The notes beneath the pieces are model-generated. The model was not told the DNA's origin. It saw only the letters and a program-made list of their open reading frames with translations, and ran no database searches. Positions 31,433 through 42,840 of a stretch of 45,361 nucleotides of DNA are shown one piece after another. This DNA is from Buttiauxella warmboldiae (GTDB lineage: Bacteria; Pseudomonadota; Gammaproteobacteria; Enterobacterales; Enterobacteriaceae). Numbering within the stretch: position 1 is the first letter of the stretch; each line of letters begins with the position of its first letter. Where the stretch lies: contig NZ_RPOH01000098.1 in assembly GCF_003818135.1 (NCBI RefSeq), forward strand, positions 1 to 45,361, given 5' to 3'. A program made the translations under genes and the position numbers.

Positions 31433-31596
31433 GCATCAAAGCTCTTTGCCGCTTAGATAGCCATATCATCAGCTAAATGAGCGGTGAACTTATCATTCAC
31501 GGTACGCGGCCAGAATGATTGTTTGCGCTGCGTGCCGGTTTCGACAGGCCAATCCCGATGTTGTGATCCACTACACTTATTGCCGTGTACAGATAA

Positions 31597-31724
31597 AACA
31601 CGCGCTGTAGTGATACGATATGAGACTATATAAAACAAAAAAAGGCCATGATTTACAATGGCCTTTTTATCCTGACGAGACTTAGTGAGACTACGCGATA
31701 TCGCGTGAAACGTTACTCGATGTT
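31597..31724. repeat. attL: left direct repeat (128 bp) with displaced yicC terminus
   Basis: Matches 42714-42840 with eight mismatches and one single-base indel. Read on the minus strand it starts with the last codons of yicC (AAC ATC GAG TAA) and contains the yicC terminator hairpin (AGGCCAT/ATGGCCT, 31643-31664), now cut off from yicC. The divergence implies that the element brought its own yicC tail from another strain or species. Confidence 0.92.
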
Positions 31725-31761: not shown

Positions 31762-32844
31762 TTACAAGTGTTTTCTATAATCGTCTTTTCGATTAGCTAC
31801 ACCCTTAAGTACACCGTAAGCAGATGCTATGTTGTATATGCTGCTTAATTGCTCAACGCAGCGTGGCCACAGACTCCAGATCTCACGTTCATCGAAAAGC
31901 ACTGTTTTATGTCTAGCAAGTAAGGCAGTCAAGCATGAACGCCCTAGATGTTGTCTGAGACTGGCTTTCAGCGCTATTACGCTGGGTTCTTTTGGGAGGG
32001 TAGTAAGACACCCTCTAGTAAGTAACTCCTCTCCTAAGCTGTTAGAGTAGACTTGAAGTCGCTTGAACGGGTTCTTCATCTCCAGGAGTTGGGCCAGCAT
32101 CAAGGCATTCTTTTTCTTACTGGTTGGTTTAGCGCCAGGCTTGTATCGACCTTCGATACGCAAGAAGCGCTTATGCTCATCCAGATTGATATTAATAAGT
32201 TTGGCACGATCCTTCAAAATGAGTTTTCTGTCGCGGTGTGCATTAACTTTTTCATAACAATGAATATGTAGAAGAGAGCGATTGCTGCCTATTCTAAACC
32301 CAGGTAATCCATTTTCAGTATCGTAATAAGTGCTCTTCCCTGCATTTTTTAATCCCCATAGGTAATCATCTAGCTTGCAGTTATATACATCAAGAGCTAC
32401 GTCAATTCTTGTAACCCAAGCTCGAACAAGTAGCCGATAAAATATCTCACCTAAATTGCCATTTATCCATGATACTAAATCATCTATTTTGGCTTTCGTC
32501 ATATGTTGAGGATTAAAATCCAAACGTAGCCCTCCTGTATTAGGATGCTTTGGAACATAATCGATGTGCAATAGAACTGGGGAGTTCTTCTTTCTATCGT
32601 ATATATTTAGTGATTTGCGATAAGGTTTTTCCTTTTTGTTTTTAATGTATTCAGCTCGATATATCCTTTCACTCCGTTGATTCATTTTTTCCAGTTTACT
32701 ATACACTTCCTTTTTTTCCTCTTCAGAAAGAAAACTACTAACTACAGTTAACTTATCAATTCTTATTTTTAGATTGTGCCCGTCATTATCTCTACCGATC
32801 TTTAAAGATTGGCATATATCTATATTGCTTCTGTGTAATAACAT
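31762..32844 (-). CDS. Rolling-circle replication initiator (Rep_trans/phage initiation factor type)
   Basis: A 360-aa protein with features of the replication initiation factor family that includes RstA of CTX phage and pII-like proteins. These nick the origin and start rolling-circle replication. RLLVRAWVTRIDVALDVYNC (about residues 137-156) matches the family's conserved RiDlavD strand. LLHIHCYEK (about residues 191-199) resembles the H-x-H plus Tyr region. FLRIEGRYKP (about residues 227-236) is the family R-x-E-x-R segment. AAGGAA precedes the ATG. It follows alpA in the same direction, with an inverted repeat between them that may be its origin. The assignment is by motif; the catalytic tyrosine is inferred. 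Confidence 0.75.
   Translation of the reverse strand: MLLHRSNIDICQSLKIGRDNDGHNLKIRIDKLTVVSSFLSEEEKKEVYSKLEKMNQRSERIYRAEYIKNKKEKPYRKSLNIYDRKKNSPVLLHIDYVPKHPNTGGLRLDFNPQHMTKAKIDDLVSWINGNLGEIFYRLLVRAWVTRIDVALDVYNCKLDDYLWGLKNAGKSTYYDTENGLPGFRIGSNRSLLHIHCYEKVNAHRDRKLILKDRAKLININLDEHKRFLRIEGRYKPGAKPTSKKKNALMLAQLLEMKNPFKRLQVYSNSLGEELLTRGCLTTLPKEPSVIALKASLRQHLGRSCLTALLARHKTVLFDEREIWSLWPRCVEQLSSIYNIASAYGVLKGVANRKDDYRKHL
31805..31814. repeat. Possible integrase arm site, left end
   Basis: TTAAGTACAC, identical to a motif repeated next to the int gene at 42658-42709. Here it lies inside the last codons of rep, about 80 bp from attL, a spacing usual for arm-type sites. Confidence 0.4.
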
Positions 32845-32994: not shown

Positions 32995-33225
32995 TCAAAT
33001 TTTGGTTTCTGCTAACGACACTTTTTGACGATTGGCAATCCATTGCAGTATTTCCTCTTCTCGCCATGCAACAGCACGCGAGGATTCGTTATTGCTGGCG
33101 ATTCCACCAGTCAAACGAACTGGCTCAGGAAAGTGACCTGCCTTGATCTGGCGATATAGCGTTGCTTTTGAAAAAGCGCAGTATTCAAGGACGGTTTTTA
33201 GTTTGATCAGACGTGAGGTGTGCAT
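32995..33225 (-). CDS. alpA: AlpA-family DNA-binding regulator
   Basis: A 76-aa excisionase-like winged helix-turn-helix protein of the AlpA family; in P4-like satellites and related islands AlpA activates int or excision genes. The HTH reads VLEYCAFSKATLYRQIKAGH (residues 13-32), followed by FPEPVRL and the typical WREEEILQWIANR. It is transcribed leftward toward rep, divergent from the ribbon-helix-helix gene, with four palindromes between them. The ribosome binding site is weak. Family call is firm; the gene it controls is inferred. Confidence 0.88.
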   Translation of the reverse strand: MHTSRLIKLKTVLEYCAFSKATLYRQIKAGHFPEPVRLTGGIASNNESSRAVAWREEEILQWIANRQKVSLAETKI

Positions 33226-34540: not shown

Positions 34541-34690
34541 TTGTTATGGTGAAGGGAGGAGAAGGGAGCAAGACAGTGGATACCTCGTAATCTAACGCTT
34601 TTGCGGTAACCAACTCCTTGAACTGAAGATGGGATCTTTTTGGTATGTCTATAACAAACTCATAAACGAATATCTTGTTTGGCGTGGCTG

Positions 34691-35254
34691 ATGAAAAAAC
34701 AGGAAGTATTGATTATTGAATCACGTAGCGATCAGGATATTTATGATGGTAGAGGTGAAGGAGAAACATTAAAGCGTATACTTCAATTACAAGGTGTCAA
34801 TGCCAAAAGCATTGAGGCTATTAATGAGAAAATGCTCATTAAAGCGTTAAAAGTCGCTCAAAGAGAAAATATAAAATATGTCCACATTAGTGCTCATGGA
34901 TATGATAGAGGCTTTGCTCTAACAGATGATGCTATTATTACATGGCGAGATTTAGATCGACTTGCCTGGCCGATATTAAGAGGGAAATGCATTTGTTTCT
35001 CAAGTTGCTCTGTTGGTAATGGCGCAGAAGAGTTATTTATCCTACACAAATCATTCTGTAATGCGATTATTGCCCCAACAAGAGATATTAGCTGGGGGGA
35101 AGGCTTGGTGGCATATTCTGCGTTTTACCATCGAGCACAATTACGTGAAAAATCATCTATCCAGAATGTAAAAGTAATGAACCATATTGTTGGTGCGGGG
35201 ACGTTCAGGGTTATTGAGTCTCCCTATGTTTCTCATACATATACGATTGGTTGA
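34691..35254 (+). CDS. CHAT/caspase-like cysteine protease domain protein
   Basis: A 187-aa protein that appears to be a bare caspase-fold (clan CD) domain. The catalytic dyad is His69 in YVHISAHGYDRGFAL and Cys106 in CICFSSCSVGNG, the order and spacing of CHAT domains. APTRDISWGEGLVAYSAFYH (residues 128-147) matches the CHAT C-terminal region where the chain returns to the core. The N-terminus LIIESRSDQDIYDGRGEG is also family-like. No TPR, NTPase or sensor domain is attached, which is unusual. The start at 34691 replaces a TTG four codons earlier. A two-TM zinc-ribbon gene follows in the same direction and may encode its target or sensor. A defence role is inferred from context. Confidence 0.72.
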   Translation: MKKQEVLIIESRSDQDIYDGRGEGETLKRILQLQGVNAKSIEAINEKMLIKALKVAQRENIKYVHISAHGYDRGFALTDDAIITWRDLDRLAWPILRGKCICFSSCSVGNGAEELFILHKSFCNAIIAPTRDISWGEGLVAYSAFYHRAQLREKSSIQNVKVMNHIVGAGTFRVIESPYVSHTYTIG

Positions 35255-35324
35255 TTAAAGAAGAGGAAATGAGGTAGGTCATGTTACTCGACATAGACAA
35301 TATGAGTTAATTTTGGAGGGCAGT

Positions 35325-35813
35325 ATGAATAAAGAACAAGATGAAATTAAACGTGATGCGAACGTTCATTCATGGCTATATGGAGTAGGGTTGACGGGAG
35401 TTATTTCAGGCATAGGTTATATCTTCACGCCTCTGGAAATACCGATCCGTTTAATTGTCAGTGCATTAATATTCTTACTGCTTTTATTCCCTATTGTTAA
35501 ATTGGTTTTTTATTTTATTTCAAGTGGTCTTAGATGTAAGGTTTGCAATGCTTCATATAGTATTCAACTAATAGATACTAAAAGAGAATTTTTATCAGCC
35601 ATACCCAGGAGTAAAACTCAAAACCAAGCCGTTGTTGGTGGAGATACACGAGGCCCTCATTATGGAAAGCAGATAATTATAAAGTCAACTTGGACAGAAG
35701 AACGATACAAAATTACTAATGTTTATTCGTGTGTTAATTGCGGAAACACCTATGATACTCAACGTATGGAAACACGAAAACAAGGATATTCCAGTACAAA
35801 ATTATATCGGTGA
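35325..35813 (+). CDS. Two-pass membrane protein with C-terminal zinc ribbon
   Basis: A 162-aa protein, family not recognised. Transmembrane segments are at about residues 17-34 and 41-66. They are followed by a soluble part with two Cys pairs, CKVC (71/74) and CVNC (136/139), probably one zinc ribbon split by a 60-residue insert. The N-terminus and zinc ribbon should be cytoplasmic. The ATG follows GGAGG. It lies 70 bp after the caspase-like gene and is probably co-transcribed with it. It could be the membrane effector or substrate of that protease; this is inference only. Confidence 0.65.
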   Translation: MNKEQDEIKRDANVHSWLYGVGLTGVISGIGYIFTPLEIPIRLIVSALIFLLLLFPIVKLVFYFISSGLRCKVCNASYSIQLIDTKREFLSAIPRSKTQNQAVVGGDTRGPHYGKQIIIKSTWTEERYKITNVYSCVNCGNTYDTQRMETRKQGYSSTKLYR

Positions 35814-36310: not shown

Positions 36311-36916
36311 TTATAGAGATTTTTTAATATAGGAGCGACTGGAATAATGTAAAGTCGATAAATAACTAGCTAACCCGTCGTGAGGTGGTATGGTATTATT
36401 CATTTCACGAGCCCATCCATCATAAGTTCGTACCTGAATAAATGGATTTGATAGCCCTTTTTGACTCCAGCGTTCCTGTCTCCTACTATTATTTAATTCA
36501 GAATCCCTTCCGTAAATCAGTATTCCTCTTACAGCAAAAAAAGGTGGCAAGTCATTATGAGACTTTAGTGGGACGAGTGTATCTCGAAACGTACCTTGGT
36601 TCCTAGCGCACCAGCCCAACCAATCTTCCACTTGCCCGTATGCGTGATTAAAACTTTGAGTAAATGAACTGTCTTGATTAAATATCAATTTCGAAGGTTT
36701 TTCAATCTCAATAAGATACACATATGTGGGGCCGGAACGAGGATTTACCCATGTAAAATCTGTGATAAAATCGACGCCTAATGGAAACTTAGATATTAAT
36801 GCATTCGATAATGCATAAGCAGCCCCTATAATTGATGCAGGGTGTTTTTCAAAAAAATCTTGTATCTTGGATTCTTCAGGATCAGTATTAATCAACTTTA
36901 TTAATTCGTTCATCAT
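36311..36916 (-). CDS. sduA: Shedu-type (DUF4263) nuclease, minimal form
   Basis: A 201-aa protein matching the Shedu anti-phage nuclease domain. KIQDFFEKHPASIIG (about residues 17-31) is the helix that precedes it. FITDFTWVN with its Asp is then followed by YVYLIEIEKPSKLIF, the E-x-K strand of the PD-(D/E)xK core. SFNHAYGQVEDWLGW carries the conserved Gln. It is short for the family: only the nuclease domain, no N-terminal sensor. It is convergent with the exported-protein gene and separated from the upstream five-gene operon by a terminator, so it is probably an independent unit. Family call is good; activity is inferred. Confidence 0.82.
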   Translation of the reverse strand: MMNELIKLINTDPEESKIQDFFEKHPASIIGAAYALSNALISKFPLGVDFITDFTWVNPRSGPTYVYLIEIEKPSKLIFNQDSSFTQSFNHAYGQVEDWLGWCARNQGTFRDTLVPLKSHNDLPPFFAVRGILIYGRDSELNNSRRQERWSQKGLSNPFIQVRTYDGWAREMNNTIPPHDGLASYLSTLHYSSRSYIKKSL

Positions 36917-37048: not shown

Positions 37049-37079
37049 AAAAAACATGCCTGTTTTAAACAGGCATGTT
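37049..37079 (-). terminator. Terminator of the five-gene leftward operon
   Basis: A 13-bp perfect inverted repeat (37053-37065 and 37067-37079, AACATGCCTGTTT arms), followed on the minus strand by a run of T residues. It lies 30 bp after the stop of the HNH-like gene. Confidence 0.88.
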
Positions 37080-37108: not shown

Positions 37109-37837
37109 TCAATCAGCCCAATCAAGAAAATAACCATGTTCTTCACAATATGAATAAGTTTCTTCGTAAGTGTTTATACCTCTGCGCGTCATGTCAGCAT
37201 GAATATCTCGGAATATTATTACGCCATTGTTAATATCAAGTGCTGTGCTCGGGTTATAAACGACACTATCTATATGCGCAAATTGCATTAAAGAAGAGTC
37301 ACCAAATGAACGTCCTGTAAATTCACACTGAGTAATATTATAGGTTCGGATACGTTCATTTTTCAGAGTCGAGCGTTTTTGTTCTATTTCTTCTAAAAAC
37401 ATCTCTTTCAAATCTCTCACTGCTCCAGAGTTAAGAATCCTGAAGTAAAGATTAAGAGCTATTTTTAAGTATTGCTTTGTTTTCCCACTTCTGCAACCTA
37501 TTCTAGAATCCAGAATAGCACATAATGAATGTCCAGAAATATGATCAAACCCATCTATGGATACTATTTCTGAACGAGGTAGAAATCCAGGTATGCCTTG
37601 ATATATAAGAGCCCTCTCCAGCCCGGAATTACCTGTACGTATTATATCGGCAATCCCTTTTACTTTAATGAAAGGAACTCCATTTACGCATATTTTTGTA
37701 TTAGTGTATAAAGCTTTTGCTATTGATTCAACATTACCTCTATCTAGCTGGTCTAATGTTGCATTTGATATTTCATTAATAGAAAATGGATCTGTTAGTT
37801 CGGAGAGATCGTAATATCTAAGAGTTGGATAGTTCAT
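37109..37837 (-). CDS. HNH-like nuclease domain protein
   Basis: A 242-aa protein of unrecognised family. The C-terminal 75 residues read as an HNH/treble-clef nuclease: CEFTG (Cys171), MQFAHIDSV (His188), LDINNGVIIFRDIHADMTRR (Asn203/204, His213), then a Tyr/Cys-rich helix. This is the H-N-H order of McrA-like enzymes, without a full set of zinc cysteines. The N-terminal 160 residues are unassigned. Its ATG overlaps the stop of the J-domain gene by 4 bp, so the two are translationally coupled. It is the last gene of the operon. Confidence 0.65.
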   Translation of the reverse strand: MNYPTLRYYDLSELTDPFSINEISNATLDQLDRGNVESIAKALYTNTKICVNGVPFIKVKGIADIIRTGNSGLERALIYQGIPGFLPRSEIVSIDGFDHISGHSLCAILDSRIGCRSGKTKQYLKIALNLYFRILNSGAVRDLKEMFLEEIEQKRSTLKNERIRTYNITQCEFTGRSFGDSSLMQFAHIDSVVYNPSTALDINNGVIIFRDIHADMTRRGINTYEETYSYCEEHGYFLDWAD

Positions 37838-38250
37838 TTCTTACCCACCATCTCACCATAAGCTCGATTTATTCCTTCGCTTACTTTTGTAAAATCAATA
37901 TCTTTCTTGATGTTCTTATTTTTATCAGGATGAAATTCTTTTTGCATTTTAACTAGCCATGCTTTTGCAAGCGTTGAATCAACAAAGTGCCGTCTTGTTA
38001 TACCTAACTCTTCATTAAAAGCACCACTTTCGTATTTTGATAAAAGGTATGCTAGTTTATGACGTTGTGATTTGAAGCACCCTTCTATAAGACACTGGTT
38101 AAAGTACTCTCTTAATGCTATTAAATCATTAGGAGATTTTATCGATAGAAAAGTTAAATCCTTAAATTCATACTTAATTTTTTCAAATTGAAGATTAAGT
38201 TCCTCTTCATTTAAATAAATCCAACCTTCAACTTTGTTTTTAGTTTCCAT
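37834..38250 (-). CDS. Protein with C-terminal J-domain (DnaJ-like)
   Basis: A 138-aa protein. The C-terminal 45 residues carry the J-domain core: the helix AKAWLVKMQKEF, the invariant His-Pro-Asp (107-109), then DFTKVSEGINRAYGEMVG. The N-terminal 90 residues are helical and charged with no recognised domain. A J-domain at the C-terminus is unusual for a classical DnaJ and suggests recruitment of DnaK to a specific partner, probably the HNH-like protein encoded by the overlapping next gene. GAGG lies 7 bases before the ATG. Confidence 0.75.
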   Translation of the reverse strand: METKNKVEGWIYLNEEELNLQFEKIKYEFKDLTFLSIKSPNDLIALREYFNQCLIEGCFKSQRHKLAYLLSKYESGAFNEELGITRRHFVDSTLAKAWLVKMQKEFHPDKNKNIKKDIDFTKVSEGINRAYGEMVGKK

Positions 38251-38291
38251 ATTAATTCCTCACAAATTAAACGATCTCGTAATATATAAAA

Positions 38292-38993
38292 TCAACCTTC
38301 GCTTTCCAATAACTGTTGTATTACTAAATCCGTATAAAATGGTATTTGATCATCAAGTGCTAAAAGACTTCCAGCCTTGGATATTTCGAAATCAGATGGT
38401 CTCCCATCTATAAGACAGTTTATTTTCATTTTATCTATTGTAAACTTCCTTTCCCCAGTTAATTCATATAGATCATTAATAGCATTTTTACGTGATAATA
38501 CTTCAATTGACGACTTTGCATTGTCGTTAATTACCATACTGCTTACTTTTATTTTTCTAATTTTTAAGAGTGAAATTTCGTCCATTCTTTTTAAAACGGA
38601 ATGAAATTTATTCAGATCAATATTTATTGAACTTAATCCAATTTTATAGTTTAATTCCGAACAAAGTTTGTCTATGAAATTTTTGATAGATTTTGGTGGA
38701 TTATAGATACATAACAGATAAAGTTTTGTAGATAATGGAATTAATGAAAATTTCACAGAGATATACTCGGTGATTATTTGAACGTGTTCATTACCCAATG
38801 GGTCAACAATTATATTCTCTATAATATTTCTTTCAGTGTGAATTGCTCTAATGATGTTTCCATCTAATTCGAAAGCAGAATAGCCATAGCCTTTATCGTC
38901 TGAGTATGTGTTTTGGCTAAAATAGTCAACCAACTCAGATAATGATAATGATGTTCTAAGGCGATTCCACTTCACTCTTTCTTGAACACTCAT
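38292..38993 (-). CDS. Unknown protein in the defence-like operon
   Basis: A 233-aa, Ile/Lys/Asn-rich soluble protein; no family recognised. No signal peptide, membrane segment or cysteine cluster is seen. The N-terminus has LSLSELVDYFSQ and a Gly/Tyr-rich GYGYSAFELDGN; the C-terminus is acidic (QQLLESEG). It starts 8 bases after the upstream gene, behind a GAGG ribosome binding site, so it is in the same transcript. It could be an accessory or regulatory subunit of the two proteins encoded before it. Confidence 0.7.
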   Translation of the reverse strand: MSVQERVKWNRLRTSLSLSELVDYFSQNTYSDDKGYGYSAFELDGNIIRAIHTERNIIENIIVDPLGNEHVQIITEYISVKFSLIPLSTKLYLLCIYNPPKSIKNFIDKLCSELNYKIGLSSINIDLNKFHSVLKRMDEISLLKIRKIKVSSMVINDNAKSSIEVLSRKNAINDLYELTGERKFTIDKMKINCLIDGRPSDFEISKAGSLLALDDQIPFYTDLVIQQLLESEG

Positions 38994-39001
38994 ATATTAC
39001 C

Positions 39002-40078
39002 TCATTCATATTCTTCATTAATATTATCTATGATTGAACGGGCTGTTGATTCAATTAACCGCTTGAAATATAGCTCTCTATTGTCACTTAAAGGAGATGC
39101 ATTTTTATTATATTCACCTGCTCCTTTATACTTCTTATAACCTCTAGATATGTACGAAAATCCTGTGAAATCTAATGGGTCGCTAAATTGAGCTTCAAAC
39201 TCATACATATCTGGATCACCGTTTTGTTCTAATACTTTCCAGCGGATTTTCCAGATATAAAAACCACGTTGATATAATGAAGTTAGCTCTTCTGATTTTA
39301 GAACACCTTCACCTTTTAATGAGGCTTTACTTATATGTACACCCGAATCAGTATCACCATCTTCTTCTTCAATAACTTTTGGCTTTGGATGATAAACATA
39401 GGCATCGGTAACATCATGCAGGGTAAAACCTTCCAATCCATTAATTAATCTGGTAAAAAATTCCGTTCTTTTCTCTGCATCATCTATGTTACTCAAGCTA
39501 ATTTCATCGAGGTTCAAATCGAAATTATTCTCAGATTCTACTTCGTTACATAGTTTCTCGACATGCTTTAAGAGATTTGACTCATACACTTTAGCTTGAT
39601 CGTTATCGGGTCGTCGGATTGAATAACCTAAGTCTTGTTTTTCGATTTCGAAAACTGCTGTTTTTTTCTCAACTTGGCAGAAGTCACTTTTTCCATAATT
39701 TGTACTTAAATAAGTAATATGTATTCTGATTATATTCTTATCAGCTATTACATGGCAAAGATCATCTTGGCTTTCTAACTCCTTCTTTAATTGGTCAGCA
39801 GCTTCTAACATTACATCTCGTGATATTTCATTTTTGACAAGAACTGATGTATTTTTTTCTCTTCGAAGGAAACCACCAAAAATAGCAGCAATTTTTTGGT
39901 GTAAATGAAAATCATGTGAGAATTTAGAAAAATTCTTAGCAAGTTCTTTCTTATCTGTTGCCTTAGATACTAAAATACCGCGTTCAAGGTATAAGTCTCG
40001 TAATTCATTAGTTGTGACTCTTGGTTGACTTAGTGCGTCAAAAAGAGCCTTATCAGTCACACTATGAATATTATTCAT
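39002..40078 (-). CDS. Unknown protein, possible SAP/HeH-like N-terminus
   Basis: A 358-aa protein. VTTNELRDLYLERGILVSKA, then TDKKELAKNFSKF (residues 21-53) resembles a SAP- or HeH-like helix-extended-helix DNA-binding fold. The middle is beta-rich and the centre has a short acidic linker (EEEDGDTDSG, about residue 240). No catalytic motif is obvious. Its ATG overlaps the stop of the PD-(D/E)xK-like gene (ATGA), indicating a coupled pair that probably forms a complex. Candidate role: DNA-recognition partner of that nuclease. Not otherwise recognised. Confidence 0.7.
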   Translation of the reverse strand: MNNIHSVTDKALFDALSQPRVTTNELRDLYLERGILVSKATDKKELAKNFSKFSHDFHLHQKIAAIFGGFLRREKNTSVLVKNEISRDVMLEAADQLKKELESQDDLCHVIADKNIIRIHITYLSTNYGKSDFCQVEKKTAVFEIEKQDLGYSIRRPDNDQAKVYESNLLKHVEKLCNEVESENNFDLNLDEISLSNIDDAEKRTEFFTRLINGLEGFTLHDVTDAYVYHPKPKVIEEEDGDTDSGVHISKASLKGEGVLKSEELTSLYQRGFYIWKIRWKVLEQNGDPDMYEFEAQFSDPLDFTGFSYISRGYKKYKGAGEYNKNASPLSDNRELYFKRLIESTARSIIDNINEEYE

Positions 40079-41142
40079 TTCTCAAGCCCCCATGATCTTT
40101 CTTCGGATGAGTAGAATTCTTTTTGAATCGGTACTGAGTAGATCTCAATTGAATCAAGATATTTTTTCATATCTTCATCATATCCCCAATCCATTGCAAA
40201 TTTTTGTCGCGCGCGAAAGAAATGTGAGACTAAAGAATCATCTTTATCCAGAGACGCTACTCTAATACGTATTTTATTTTTTGCATTTAAAATCTGGTAG
40301 TTGCTCAGTAAATCTAGAAGATAATAAAATTCTAGGTCACTATTTGCTTTTTCATTATAATAAATAATGTAACCTTCAGGATAAACCTCTTTATCTTCCT
40401 GTTTTTTTCTATCCCATTCGAAAACAGCTCCATGTTTAACAATCATGAATGGGGACGTAAGTGTTTCTATTGTAGCTGGCAAATACTCATCTGCATTAAG
40501 GACTTTATGAAATGTTAGTTGAGGGTAAAAGAAGCCATATTCTTCTTTTGGAAATTTCGATTCTGCTATAAGTTCATTCATATCCCCAACGATGGACATA
40601 AGGTAAGTAATTGTTCTCGGTTCAATAATATGAATCTGCTGTCCTGTAGTCAGTTTTATCTTATCAAGATTGACCGCAGTGGGCCTTCTGCCTTTGGCTG
40701 GCTTAGGAGGATAAAAAAAGTCGTAGAAGTTATGTTTGAAATCATTATCATGATTATAAACAAACAACAATCCTCTAATTTCACTTTTTTCAGGTTGAGT
40801 GCAATATCGTTCAGACCATACTCCACTACGTTTTGCGCAATTAATAGTTTTCCCCAATGAATTTAGAGAATTTTCAATCATTTTCGGATTCAGCGATCCT
40901 GCTGAATAACTTTTTAGATCAGTATTCAAATAAATTATTTTATTTAAATATGGATCTTTATAATGAAATACTACATCCACCGGATGAGTATGCGACTGTT
41001 TTTTATCCTCTGGTTTATGCTCTTCTTCATTGATGCATGGGAAATCCTGATCTGTTGGACCATGCTGTTGCCATTTGAAACGAGCCAGTAATTTTGAGGA
41101 GACCAGCTTGGCTAAATCCTCGCGCGGGCCATTTTCTGACAT
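40075..41142 (-). CDS. PD-(D/E)xK-like nuclease protein, first gene of the operon
   Basis: A 355-aa protein. HPVDVVFHYKDPYLNKIIYL (Asp56) followed by NTDLKSYSAG (Asp75-x-Lys77) has the D-(x)n-(D/E)-x-K layout of the PD-(D/E)xK nuclease core; Glu8 in REDLAKLV may be the preceding helix residue. The remaining 250 residues are unassigned. The ATG follows GATGGAG. It opens a five-gene leftward operon that runs to 37109. A comparison with two-gene PD-(D/E)xK defence systems such as GAPS4 is warranted; I could not make it. The nuclease call rests on one motif. Confidence 0.6.
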   Translation of the reverse strand: MSENGPREDLAKLVSSKLLARFKWQQHGPTDQDFPCINEEEHKPEDKKQSHTHPVDVVFHYKDPYLNKIIYLNTDLKSYSAGSLNPKMIENSLNSLGKTINCAKRSGVWSERYCTQPEKSEIRGLLFVYNHDNDFKHNFYDFFYPPKPAKGRRPTAVNLDKIKLTTGQQIHIIEPRTITYLMSIVGDMNELIAESKFPKEEYGFFYPQLTFHKVLNADEYLPATIETLTSPFMIVKHGAVFEWDRKKQEDKEVYPEGYIIYYNEKANSDLEFYYLLDLLSNYQILNAKNKIRIRVASLDKDDSLVSHFFRARQKFAMDWGYDEDMKKYLDSIEIYSVPIQKEFYSSEERSWGLEK

Positions 41143-41176: not shown

Positions 41177-41206
41177 AATATAGTGGGTATAAAGCCTCCA
41201 TTGCAA
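41177..41206 (-). promoter_or_regulatory. Candidate promoter of the five-gene operon
   Basis: On the minus strand: -35 TTGCAA (41206-41201), an 18-bp spacer, -10 TATATT (41182-41177), 35 bp before the start of the first gene. The 230-bp spacer to int is AT-rich and has no gene. Confidence 0.45.
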
Positions 41207-41372: not shown

Positions 41373-42635
41373 TTATGCTATAACTTTTCTTAACGGCGTC
41401 ACGTTATAGCCCTCACCTCTTTCTAAAGAAACAAGCAAGTCAGCCCACAATTCCAACGCTTGCTTCCTCTCATCAAAATACTGATAACGATTATAAATCC
41501 CTTCTACGCCTTTGATTCTGTGGTTCAAACAACGCTCTGCAACTACCGGATCAACCCCTAATGCTGCCAGATGCGAGCGAGCAGTACGCCGAAAATCATG
41601 AATAGTAAAATTAGGTACATCAGGTAGATTGCCCTTTACCTTGCTCAAGGCCACAGGCAATGTGCTTTCCTGAATGTGGGGGATCATCCGGTGCTGCATC
41701 TTTCTTGCTGGAAGCACCCACTGGCTATTGCAGGACATCTGATGCAGTTCTTTTAACCATCCAAGCGCTGGTGCAGGGATAGGGATATCGATCGCATCTC
41801 CATTCTTAACTCGTTCTGCGGGTAAGTGCCAAACCGCATCATCAAGATCGAACTCTTCCCAACGTGCACCGCAAAGCTCCATCTTACGGCAGCAGAACAC
41901 CAGCAGAAGTTTCATTGTCAGCTCGTTTTGACGTGAGAAACCTTTTGTCATGGGCATAGCCTGGAAAAACTTCATCAACTCTTCACGACTGAGCCAGCGT
42001 TCTCTGCTTTGCTCCTGTCCGCCAGCATCTGAGATTTCAAAAGCACTGGTAGGATTGCTTTCAAGCATATGTCGTTTGATACCGTAATCAAAAATACGGC
42101 GAGTCCAGCGAAGAACATCATTAGCAACTGTAGGCGCTCCGCGTTGGACGATTTTTTGCAGCATATCGTCGATATGCCAGGGTTTGACATCTTCGATTCT
42201 GTGATGCCCGATTGTTGGATTGATGTCTTTGTCTATGCGGCGGCGCAGAATGTCGGGGTGCTTCCACCGATTGAGGATCTGACGTTCAAAGTATTCTGCC
42301 GCCAGTTCTGAAACGCGGAGTGCATGTTTCTCCTCCTCCATCTTCTTCAGCGCTTCAGCCTTACGTTCCTGCTTCTCTCCCGCTACGTCATGTCCCAGAG
42401 CGACACGGGCAGAAAGTTCTTTAGCAATTTCCCGCGCTTTCGCGAGCGAAATACTGGAGTAATAGCCAATCAGCATAACTCTGGCTTTGCCCGCCATTTT
42501 GTAGCGAAATCGCCAGAATGGGGCGCTATAAGTCTCTGGAAAACAGATATATAGCCCATTCCCGTCAGAGCGACCCGCAAAGTGCTCATTGTTTCTAATC
42601 CATGTACGGATTTGTATGTCTGTCAGTTTTCCCAT
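41373..42635 (-). CDS. int: Tyrosine integrase (P4-like) of the yicC element
   Basis: Site-specific recombinase of 420 aa. It has an N-terminal DUF4102-type arm-binding domain (residues 1-90), a core-binding domain, and a C-terminal catalytic domain. The catalytic residues appear as Arg in LVFCCRKMEL, the HDFRR box, His in CLNHRI and Tyr in YNRYQY. The gene lies just inside attR and is transcribed away from it, a common arrangement for integrases that use the 3' end of a target gene. The arm-site-like repeats upstream (42658-42709) overlap its promoter region. Confidence 0.93.
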   Translation of the reverse strand: MGKLTDIQIRTWIRNNEHFAGRSDGNGLYICFPETYSAPFWRFRYKMAGKARVMLIGYYSSISLAKAREIAKELSARVALGHDVAGEKQERKAEALKKMEEEKHALRVSELAAEYFERQILNRWKHPDILRRRIDKDINPTIGHHRIEDVKPWHIDDMLQKIVQRGAPTVANDVLRWTRRIFDYGIKRHMLESNPTSAFEISDAGGQEQSRERWLSREELMKFFQAMPMTKGFSRQNELTMKLLLVFCCRKMELCGARWEEFDLDDAVWHLPAERVKNGDAIDIPIPAPALGWLKELHQMSCNSQWVLPARKMQHRMIPHIQESTLPVALSKVKGNLPDVPNFTIHDFRRTARSHLAALGVDPVVAERCLNHRIKGVEGIYNRYQYFDERKQALELWADLLVSLERGEGYNVTPLRKVIA

Positions 42636-42657: not shown

Positions 42658-42709
42658 GTGTACTTAAACGTGTGTACTTAAATCTTAATAAGTACACCTT
42701 TAAGTACAC
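42658..42709. repeat. Four arm-type sites next to int
   Basis: GTGTACTTAA at 42658-42667 and 42672-42681, and the inverted form (TTAAGTACAC) at 42688-42697 (one mismatch) and 42700-42709. Two direct and two inverted copies between int and attR are typical of integrase arm sites and could also let Int regulate its own promoter. Confidence 0.65.
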
Positions 42710-42713
42710 GCAG

Positions 42714-42840
42714 AACACGCGCTGTAGTGATACTTCATGAGACTATATAAAACAAAAAAGGCCATGATTTACAATGGCCTTTTTGTCCTGATGCGACTTA
42801 GTGAGACTACGCGAGATCGCGTGAAACATTACTCGATGTT
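42714..42840. repeat. attR: right direct repeat overlapping the yicC 3' end
   Basis: The 127-bp partner of 31597-31724. It contains the last four codons of yicC, including the stop, and the terminator beyond it. Insertion therefore keeps yicC intact. Confidence 0.92.
42752..42785 (-). terminator. yicC terminator inside attR
   Basis: AGGCCAT/ATGGCCT stem with an 8-nt loop and T-runs on both strands. It can stop yicC leftward before int. Confidence 0.85.

Follow-up and report, generated by a model that had tools for sequence, protein, structure and literature searches.

Five tightly packed genes read leftward between positions 37109 and 41142 of a 45,361-nucleotide stretch of Buttiauxella warmboldiae DNA (contig NZ_RPOH01000098.1 of assembly GCF_003818135.1; the whole stretch is referred to here as the window) raise the question of whether they encode a single defence machine or an assembly of smaller parts. 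A preliminary description, made from the letters alone, had seen in them two nuclease-like proteins, a J-domain protein and two proteins without assignment, had matched them to no named defence system and had suspected either one system or a composite of two, one and two genes. The analysis reported here indicates that the operon is probably built from two stacked defence-type modules, the trio Rst_3HP (genes 1–3) and a pair consisting of a J-domain-like protein and an HNH-like nuclease (genes 4 and 5; the J/HNH pair), carried as cargo on a mobile element of ∼11 kb that also bears a Shedu gene. As judged from profile matches, the trio is the known part, and the J/HNH module is the part lacking a model in the defence library scanned.

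Organization of the operon

The five open reading frames (ORFs) lie on the minus strand and encode, in transcriptional order, Hp1 (355 amino acids (aa), 40075–41142), Hp2 (358 aa, 39002–40078), Hp3 (233 aa, 38292–38993), the J-domain-like protein (138 aa, 37834–38250) and the HNH-like protein (242 aa, 37109–37837). Re-reading of the ORF coordinates bore out both the positions and the tight packing described previously, with successive junctions from gene 1 to gene 5 consisting of a 4-bp overlap, an 8-bp gap, a 41-bp gap and a 4-bp overlap; the widest of these falls exactly at the boundary between genes 1–3 and genes 4–5. The operon ends at an intrinsic terminator (37049–37079, minus strand), a 12-bp stem leading into a U-run, which fold statistics indicate to be real, as had been proposed (z −4.49 against 200 shuffles); a consensus scan of the window did not list it among its sites. 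No terminator-like fold was detected in the 41-bp junction (z −0.24). The promoter proposed at 41177–41206 fared worse, as it matches the consensus at 9 of 12 positions in a region containing 25 such matches against 30.9 expected; it is a chance-level match whose sole support is its position. The operon is AT-rich, with a GC content of 29–34% compared with 47–57% in the first 30 kb of the window. Housekeeping families, named in the preliminary description as what would overturn its reading, are not indicated, none of the five proteins having matched Pfam or NCBIfam above cut-off. A megablast search of the operon against complete Escherichia coli genomes, which detects near-identical DNA only, returned no match.

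Identity of genes 1–3

The earlier view that no named defence system matched did not survive a PADLOC scan, in which each of the first three proteins was recognized while genes 4 and 5 were not. Hp1 matches PDLC03004 (E 1.9e-62) and phrog_7059 (E 3.2e-131), Hp2 matches PDLC03005 (E 1.1e-38) and phrog_6531 (E 4.1e-127), and Hp3 matches PDLC03006 (E 1.3e-10) and phrog_5850 (E 1.2e-47). The adjacent Hp1-Hp2-Hp3 order together with a profile match for every protein identifies genes 1–3 as Rst_3HP, an already-known phage-defence trio, with which they also have the mobile setting in common; a homologous trio in a public Vibrio phage record is annotated with the note Rst_3HP. Rousset et al. 2022 (PMC9122126) report that a three-gene P2-hotspot system, its proteins having no clearly predicted domain, confers protection on E. 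coli against phage P1, and PMC9090908 places Rst_3HP in the majority on prophages. A search of the PMC9122126 main text did not find the term 3HP, and the system is equated with Rst_3HP through PADLOC/DefenseFinder naming. By analogy with that other copy, protection against P1 might be expected of the window trio. Rst_3HP-type trios are also located near one genome end of the filamentous Pseudomonas phages 99-2 and 54-4.

Because Asp56 and Asp75-x-Lys77, the nuclease signature previously pointed out in Hp1, are invariant in all five aligned homologues, Hp1 is probably a PD-(D/E)xK DNA nuclease that works with Hp2 and Hp3, neither of which has an assigned domain. A PDB profile search with Hp1 gave no match. 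Residues 15–212 match the N-terminal part of GapS4a (NCBIfam NF047933, E 4.7e-11), suggesting that the two proteins are likely to have a nuclease-type region in common; at 42.5 bits against a curated cut-off of 270, Hp1 is not a member of that family, and membership in GAPS4 was ruled out.

Independent occurrence of the trio and the pair

Conservation of all five genes together, the absence of which the preliminary description had also named as overturning its reading, was not observed. Hp1 relatives were examined at 83 loci, comprising 80 of 89 IMG/VR relatives and three genome loci, with one weak hit (L244) excluded. Hp1, Hp2 and Hp3 occur in this order in 73 of the 83, without a gap of >500 bp in all but one of the 73 (L166); Hp1 with Hp2 is found in eight and Hp1 only in two, some of these incomplete loci being cut by locus ends. 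Profile searches for J and HNH detected neither protein at any of the 83 loci, and at least 1.2 kb of downstream sequence is present in 69 of the 73 complete trios. The same searches found neither in four phage loci drawn from eight matching phage records. The reciprocal tblastn searches with Hp1, Hp2, Hp3 and the window Shedu protein showed all four to be absent from 7/7 J/HNH loci (L002, L007, L008 and L248–L251), and the 21 plasmid records with Hp1 and the 12 with HNH have no accession in common. Among 369 genomes of the class, the PADLOC model for Hp1 detected the window's own copy only, and an alignment search of 375 genomes of the order detected five, including that copy and one weak hit. 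The window copy thus differs from Rst_3HP elsewhere in having J/HNH downstream in the same operon. The earlier suspicion of a composite was well founded but the proposed split was not: on co-occurrence, the operon is a 3+2 assembly of two independent modules, as judged by homology searches, rather than one new system.

Lineages of the J/HNH pair

Searching with the HNH protein by tblastn identified nine Vibrio/Photobacterium conjugative plasmids, which gave identical scores, were represented by one that was read and are counted as one lineage. A further copy is present on phage contig L007, Bacillota-type by inspection, and an alignment of these members reached a divergent pair in a proteobacterium, G1017. 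With the G1017 HNH protein as query, three more copies were recovered, on a Klebsiella plasmid, on a Cupriavidus plasmid and in an Acetoanaerobium record. In six of the seven resulting HNH lineages, a J-like gene lies directly upstream of the HNH gene, with a 4-bp overlap in three, a 2-bp gap in one and overlaps of 14 and 11 bp in two (start codons being assigned mechanically). The two halves of each family recognize each other far above chance, with scores of 102 for HNH and 74 for J against best shuffles of 19.6 and 21.3, respectively (100 shuffles each). Only the window's own HNH copy was found among 99 genomes, its own included, and among the 369 class genomes. A search of 398 genomes of the phylum gave four matches at E≤0.01: the window, G1017, matched over nearly its full length, and two weak, short hits (L246 and L247) that were discarded because neither locus gave a match to the family profiles. 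No further HNH copy was found in the 20 genomes surrounding G1017. Pattern scans, which depend on short conserved stretches and overlook distant relatives, returned L007 only or nothing from viral contigs with HNH and J queries, and the Vibrio sinensis copy only from genome contigs. Phage records searched with HNH and J gave no match, and neither did tblastn of J against plasmids, a search that is evidently insensitive as plasmid J genes exist. As detected, the pair is rare but recurs in unrelated bacteria, its range covering both Pseudomonadota and Bacillota and its carriers including plasmids as well as a phage contig.

None of the 13 members (seven HNH, six J) matched a PADLOC model, NCBIfam searches with the window J and HNH proteins remained below cut-off, and no J/HNH defence system was found in the open-licence literature searched, description elsewhere being possible. 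On the evidence of these searches, genes 4 and 5 are an independent, uncatalogued two-gene module. In Vibrio sinensis (L008, 6439–8474), the pair's HNH gene is interrupted by an insertion that contains transposase-like ORFs and is IS3-type by inspection.

The HNH-like and J-like proteins

His188 and His213 of the gene 5 product, two-thirds of the signature claimed for it, are invariant in 7/7 lineages and have the spacing of the two catalytic/metal histidines of HNH nucleases; the conserved asparagine is Asn204 and not, as claimed, Asn203. The C-terminal Cys-x2-Thr-Gly…His…Asn…His pattern is common to gene 5 and HNH_2 (PF13391), and in two tests the likeness exceeded all shuffles. When the C-terminus was aligned to HNH_2 domains from related genomes, a three-row profile scored 30.9 against ≤19.6 for 100 shuffles, and the seven-row profile gave an hhalign score of 36.9 against 16.0 for the best of 100 shuffles. 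The HNH_2 Pfam model itself is matched neither by gene 5 nor by the L007 and Vibrio members. The N-terminal region carries an RTGxSGxE motif, and no domain was assigned to the N-terminal half. From these resemblances, gene 5 is likely to encode an HNH-type nuclease that cuts DNA.

The preliminary assignment of gene 4 to the J-domain proteins is supported by family profile tests, in a divergent form: alone, the window protein scores below cut-off against Pfam DnaJ (E 0.012, 16.1 bits, cut-off 27.8). A six-row J profile aligned to DnaJ J domains gave an hhalign score of 37.0 against 15.7 for the best of 100 shuffles. Searched against PDB, the three-row profile reached a best match of E 0.13, and with six rows seven matches had E≤0.1, every one of them to a J domain, with T antigen the best (9.6e-5) and DnaJ homologues also represented. 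As single sequences, three of the six J proteins (window, G1017 and Acetoanaerobium) clearly exceed their own shuffles. The HPD motif is intact in four of six, at residues 107–109 in the window protein and in L007, G1017 and Acetoanaerobium. The helix-HPD-helix region is common to the gene 4 product and the J domains of DnaJ (PF00226) and T antigen; the position of the motif between helices II and III relies on helices from a poor model. Gene 4 differs from J co-chaperones in that its J-like region is C-terminal, after an N-terminus without assigned domain, and in that some members lack HPD. A small phage family, phrog_17986, matches the J-like proteins of the window (3.9e-6) and L007 (4.5e-4) and may be J-like itself; among 274 genomes it has five matches, the window's own and four weak ones, and it matched one of 14 controls, Lactococcus lactis.

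Genomic neighbourhoods of the pair

The window pair is flanked by Rst_3HP upstream and Shedu downstream. Its counterpart on the Vibrio plasmid has as neighbour a SIR2 protein matching PADLOC PDC-S25 (3.4e-81), and on the Klebsiella plasmid the pair is near an FRG protein matching PDC-S15 (2.2e-100); a UvrD-type helicase nearby has its best matches among RTasHel and GajB-type models, weak evidence in so broad a helicase family. The gene upstream of the Cupriavidus HNH is annotated in the record as RES-family, with a NACHT protein further off. In L007 the pair is situated between a gene labelled by inspection as tail-chaperone-type and the tape-measure gene. From 341 relatives of the chaperone, 80 loci (L078–L157) were kept, of which 64 were measurable and 16 were not. 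The gap between the two genes is 547–2783 bp in 60 of the 64 loci, L007 contig included, and 170–189 bp in four. The cargo, listed by hand with near-duplicate loci and short overlapping ORFs omitted, amounts to 64 proteins in 52 clusters and includes AbiJ, RES, PemK/MazF, Mom and YhcG families, with many PADLOC candidates among the matches listed (25 of 43 matched models); in two of the filled sites (L111 and L112) the scan found no ORF of 60 aa. This gap is a phage cargo hotspot. Combined, four lineages have as neighbours genes of defence or toxin type, known or candidate, and the phage cargo site occupied by a fifth accommodates genes of these kinds in relatives.

The mobile element carrying the operon

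Of the features noted in the preliminary description, the Shedu neighbour was confirmed and the mobile setting was supported. The operon sits on an integrative element of ∼11 kb, an assignment supported by a tyrosine integrase (41373–42635, minus strand; PF00589 and Arm-DNA-bind_3), an AlpA-type excisionase/regulator (32995–33225, minus strand; PF05930, 1.7e-12) and direct repeats at 31587–31724 on the left and 42704–42840 on the right (repeat families D1 and D2), which are putative attachment sites. The genes yicC, rph and pyrE flank the element on one side and ligB on the other. No empty site was found among 11 other congeners examined, because the 138-bp repeat is absent from them. Shedu is represented by an SduA C-terminal nuclease (36311–36916, minus strand; PF14082 1.9e-20, PADLOC SduA 1.5e-28), encoded in the same element by a separate gene beyond the operon terminator.

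Other genes of the element were also inspected. A 191-aa protein (34679–35254, plus strand) has a weak, below cut-off match to CHAT, a caspase-like family (E 0.0057), with His-Gly and Ser-Cys motifs by eye, and is followed by a gene (35313–35813, plus strand) whose product, on inspection, has CxxC pairs and probable membrane segments; the two may constitute another small system of the element. The 360-aa protein encoded at 31762–32844 (minus strand) had no match at the limits applied to Pfam, NCBIfam and PADLOC and may, as a guess, be a replication initiator.

Proposed function of the two modules

In the first module, Hp1 would be a probable PD-(D/E)xK DNA nuclease acting with Hp2 and Hp3 against phage. 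In the second, the J-like and HNH proteins most likely form a complex, because the J reading frame overlaps the start of the HNH gene and the two genes are linked. The HNH nuclease would be the effector, cutting DNA during infection, and the J-like protein would hold, fold or trigger it; where HPD is intact, as in the window copy, the J-like protein may in addition recruit host DnaK. On balance we favour an antiphage role for the pair.

Several observations weigh against this interpretation. In Cupriavidus, the 10.4-kb locus that contains the HNH gene lacks a J gene, and no PADLOC model is matched by its RES, NACHT or neighbouring proteins; the same applies to a recombinase-like gene and one other neighbour in G1017, and Acetoanaerobium has no convincing defence neighbour, with only a partial mad1 match (1.6e-6). 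Ordinary accessory genes, acetyltransferases for example, are likewise found as cargo at the L007-type site. Asn204 aligns in only five of the seven HNH lineages, and PDB searches returned no match with the three-row HNH profile and chance matches, none of them an HNH structure, with seven rows. AlphaFold models are poor for both the HNH protein, in which a beta-beta-alpha metal fold was looked for (two rows; pLDDT, predicted local distance difference test, 46, and 26–38 over residues 151–200) and the J protein (three rows; pLDDT 44). As single sequences, the L007 J protein, with HPD intact, and the Klebsiella J protein do not rise above shuffles against DnaJ, and the Vibrio protein does so barely and in the wrong region. 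HPD is lost in two of the six J proteins, reading HES in Vibrio and RED in Klebsiella; DnaK recruitment is thus not essential to the J family as a whole.

Three other explanations were weighed. A single defence system made up of all five proteins, in which J/HNH would be accessory to Rst_3HP and broaden or regulate it, is very unlikely: the single terminator at the operon end and the lack of one at the 41-bp junction make a common transcript possible, and PMC9122126 describes systems with accessory genes at P2/P4 defence hotspots, but the 0/83 and 0/7 co-occurrence counts led to its rejection. A less improbable, though still unlikely, explanation is that J/HNH is a toxin-antitoxin or plasmid-maintenance module, with a DNA-cutting toxin, a small upstream neutralizer and defence as a side effect, a reading that overlaps with a defence role. 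The small gene does come first, with overlapping frames in five of six pairs, the pair resides on plasmids and the Cupriavidus neighbour is annotated as RES-family; against this, the Cupriavidus HNH would lack its antitoxin, and we know of no J-type antitoxins.

Homing endonucleases occur at phage gene sites such as that between the tail-chaperone-type and tape-measure genes, where the L007 copy resides, and HNH could on this account be a free-standing homing endonuclease with J as a hitch-hiker. We regard this as highly improbable, since the site takes very different cargo, with its 52 clusters and near-empty state in four of 64 loci, and since the J partner is kept in four further settings besides the L007 phage and the window.

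The preferred interpretation, two stacked modules, leaves room for a more elaborate form in which J/HNH is an undescribed antiphage nuclease system under host Hsp70 control. The J-like protein would sense the state of DnaK, which phages disturb or recruit during replication, and couple it to release or loading of HNH, and in the plasmid lineages that lost HPD the J fold would have become a DnaK-independent switch. This form is doubtful, and DnaK-dependent gating of HNH, its weakest step, is likewise speculative and rated low because HPD is dispensable in two lineages.

Implications

An eye-catching five-gene operon is thereby resolved into parts: it is not one unknown machine, and its uncatalogued portion is isolated as the J/HNH pair. 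If the pair does restrict phages, it would represent a small nuclease defence with a partner resembling a co-chaperone, and the natural occurrence of J proteins with and without HPD would provide a direct way to ask whether DnaK matters.

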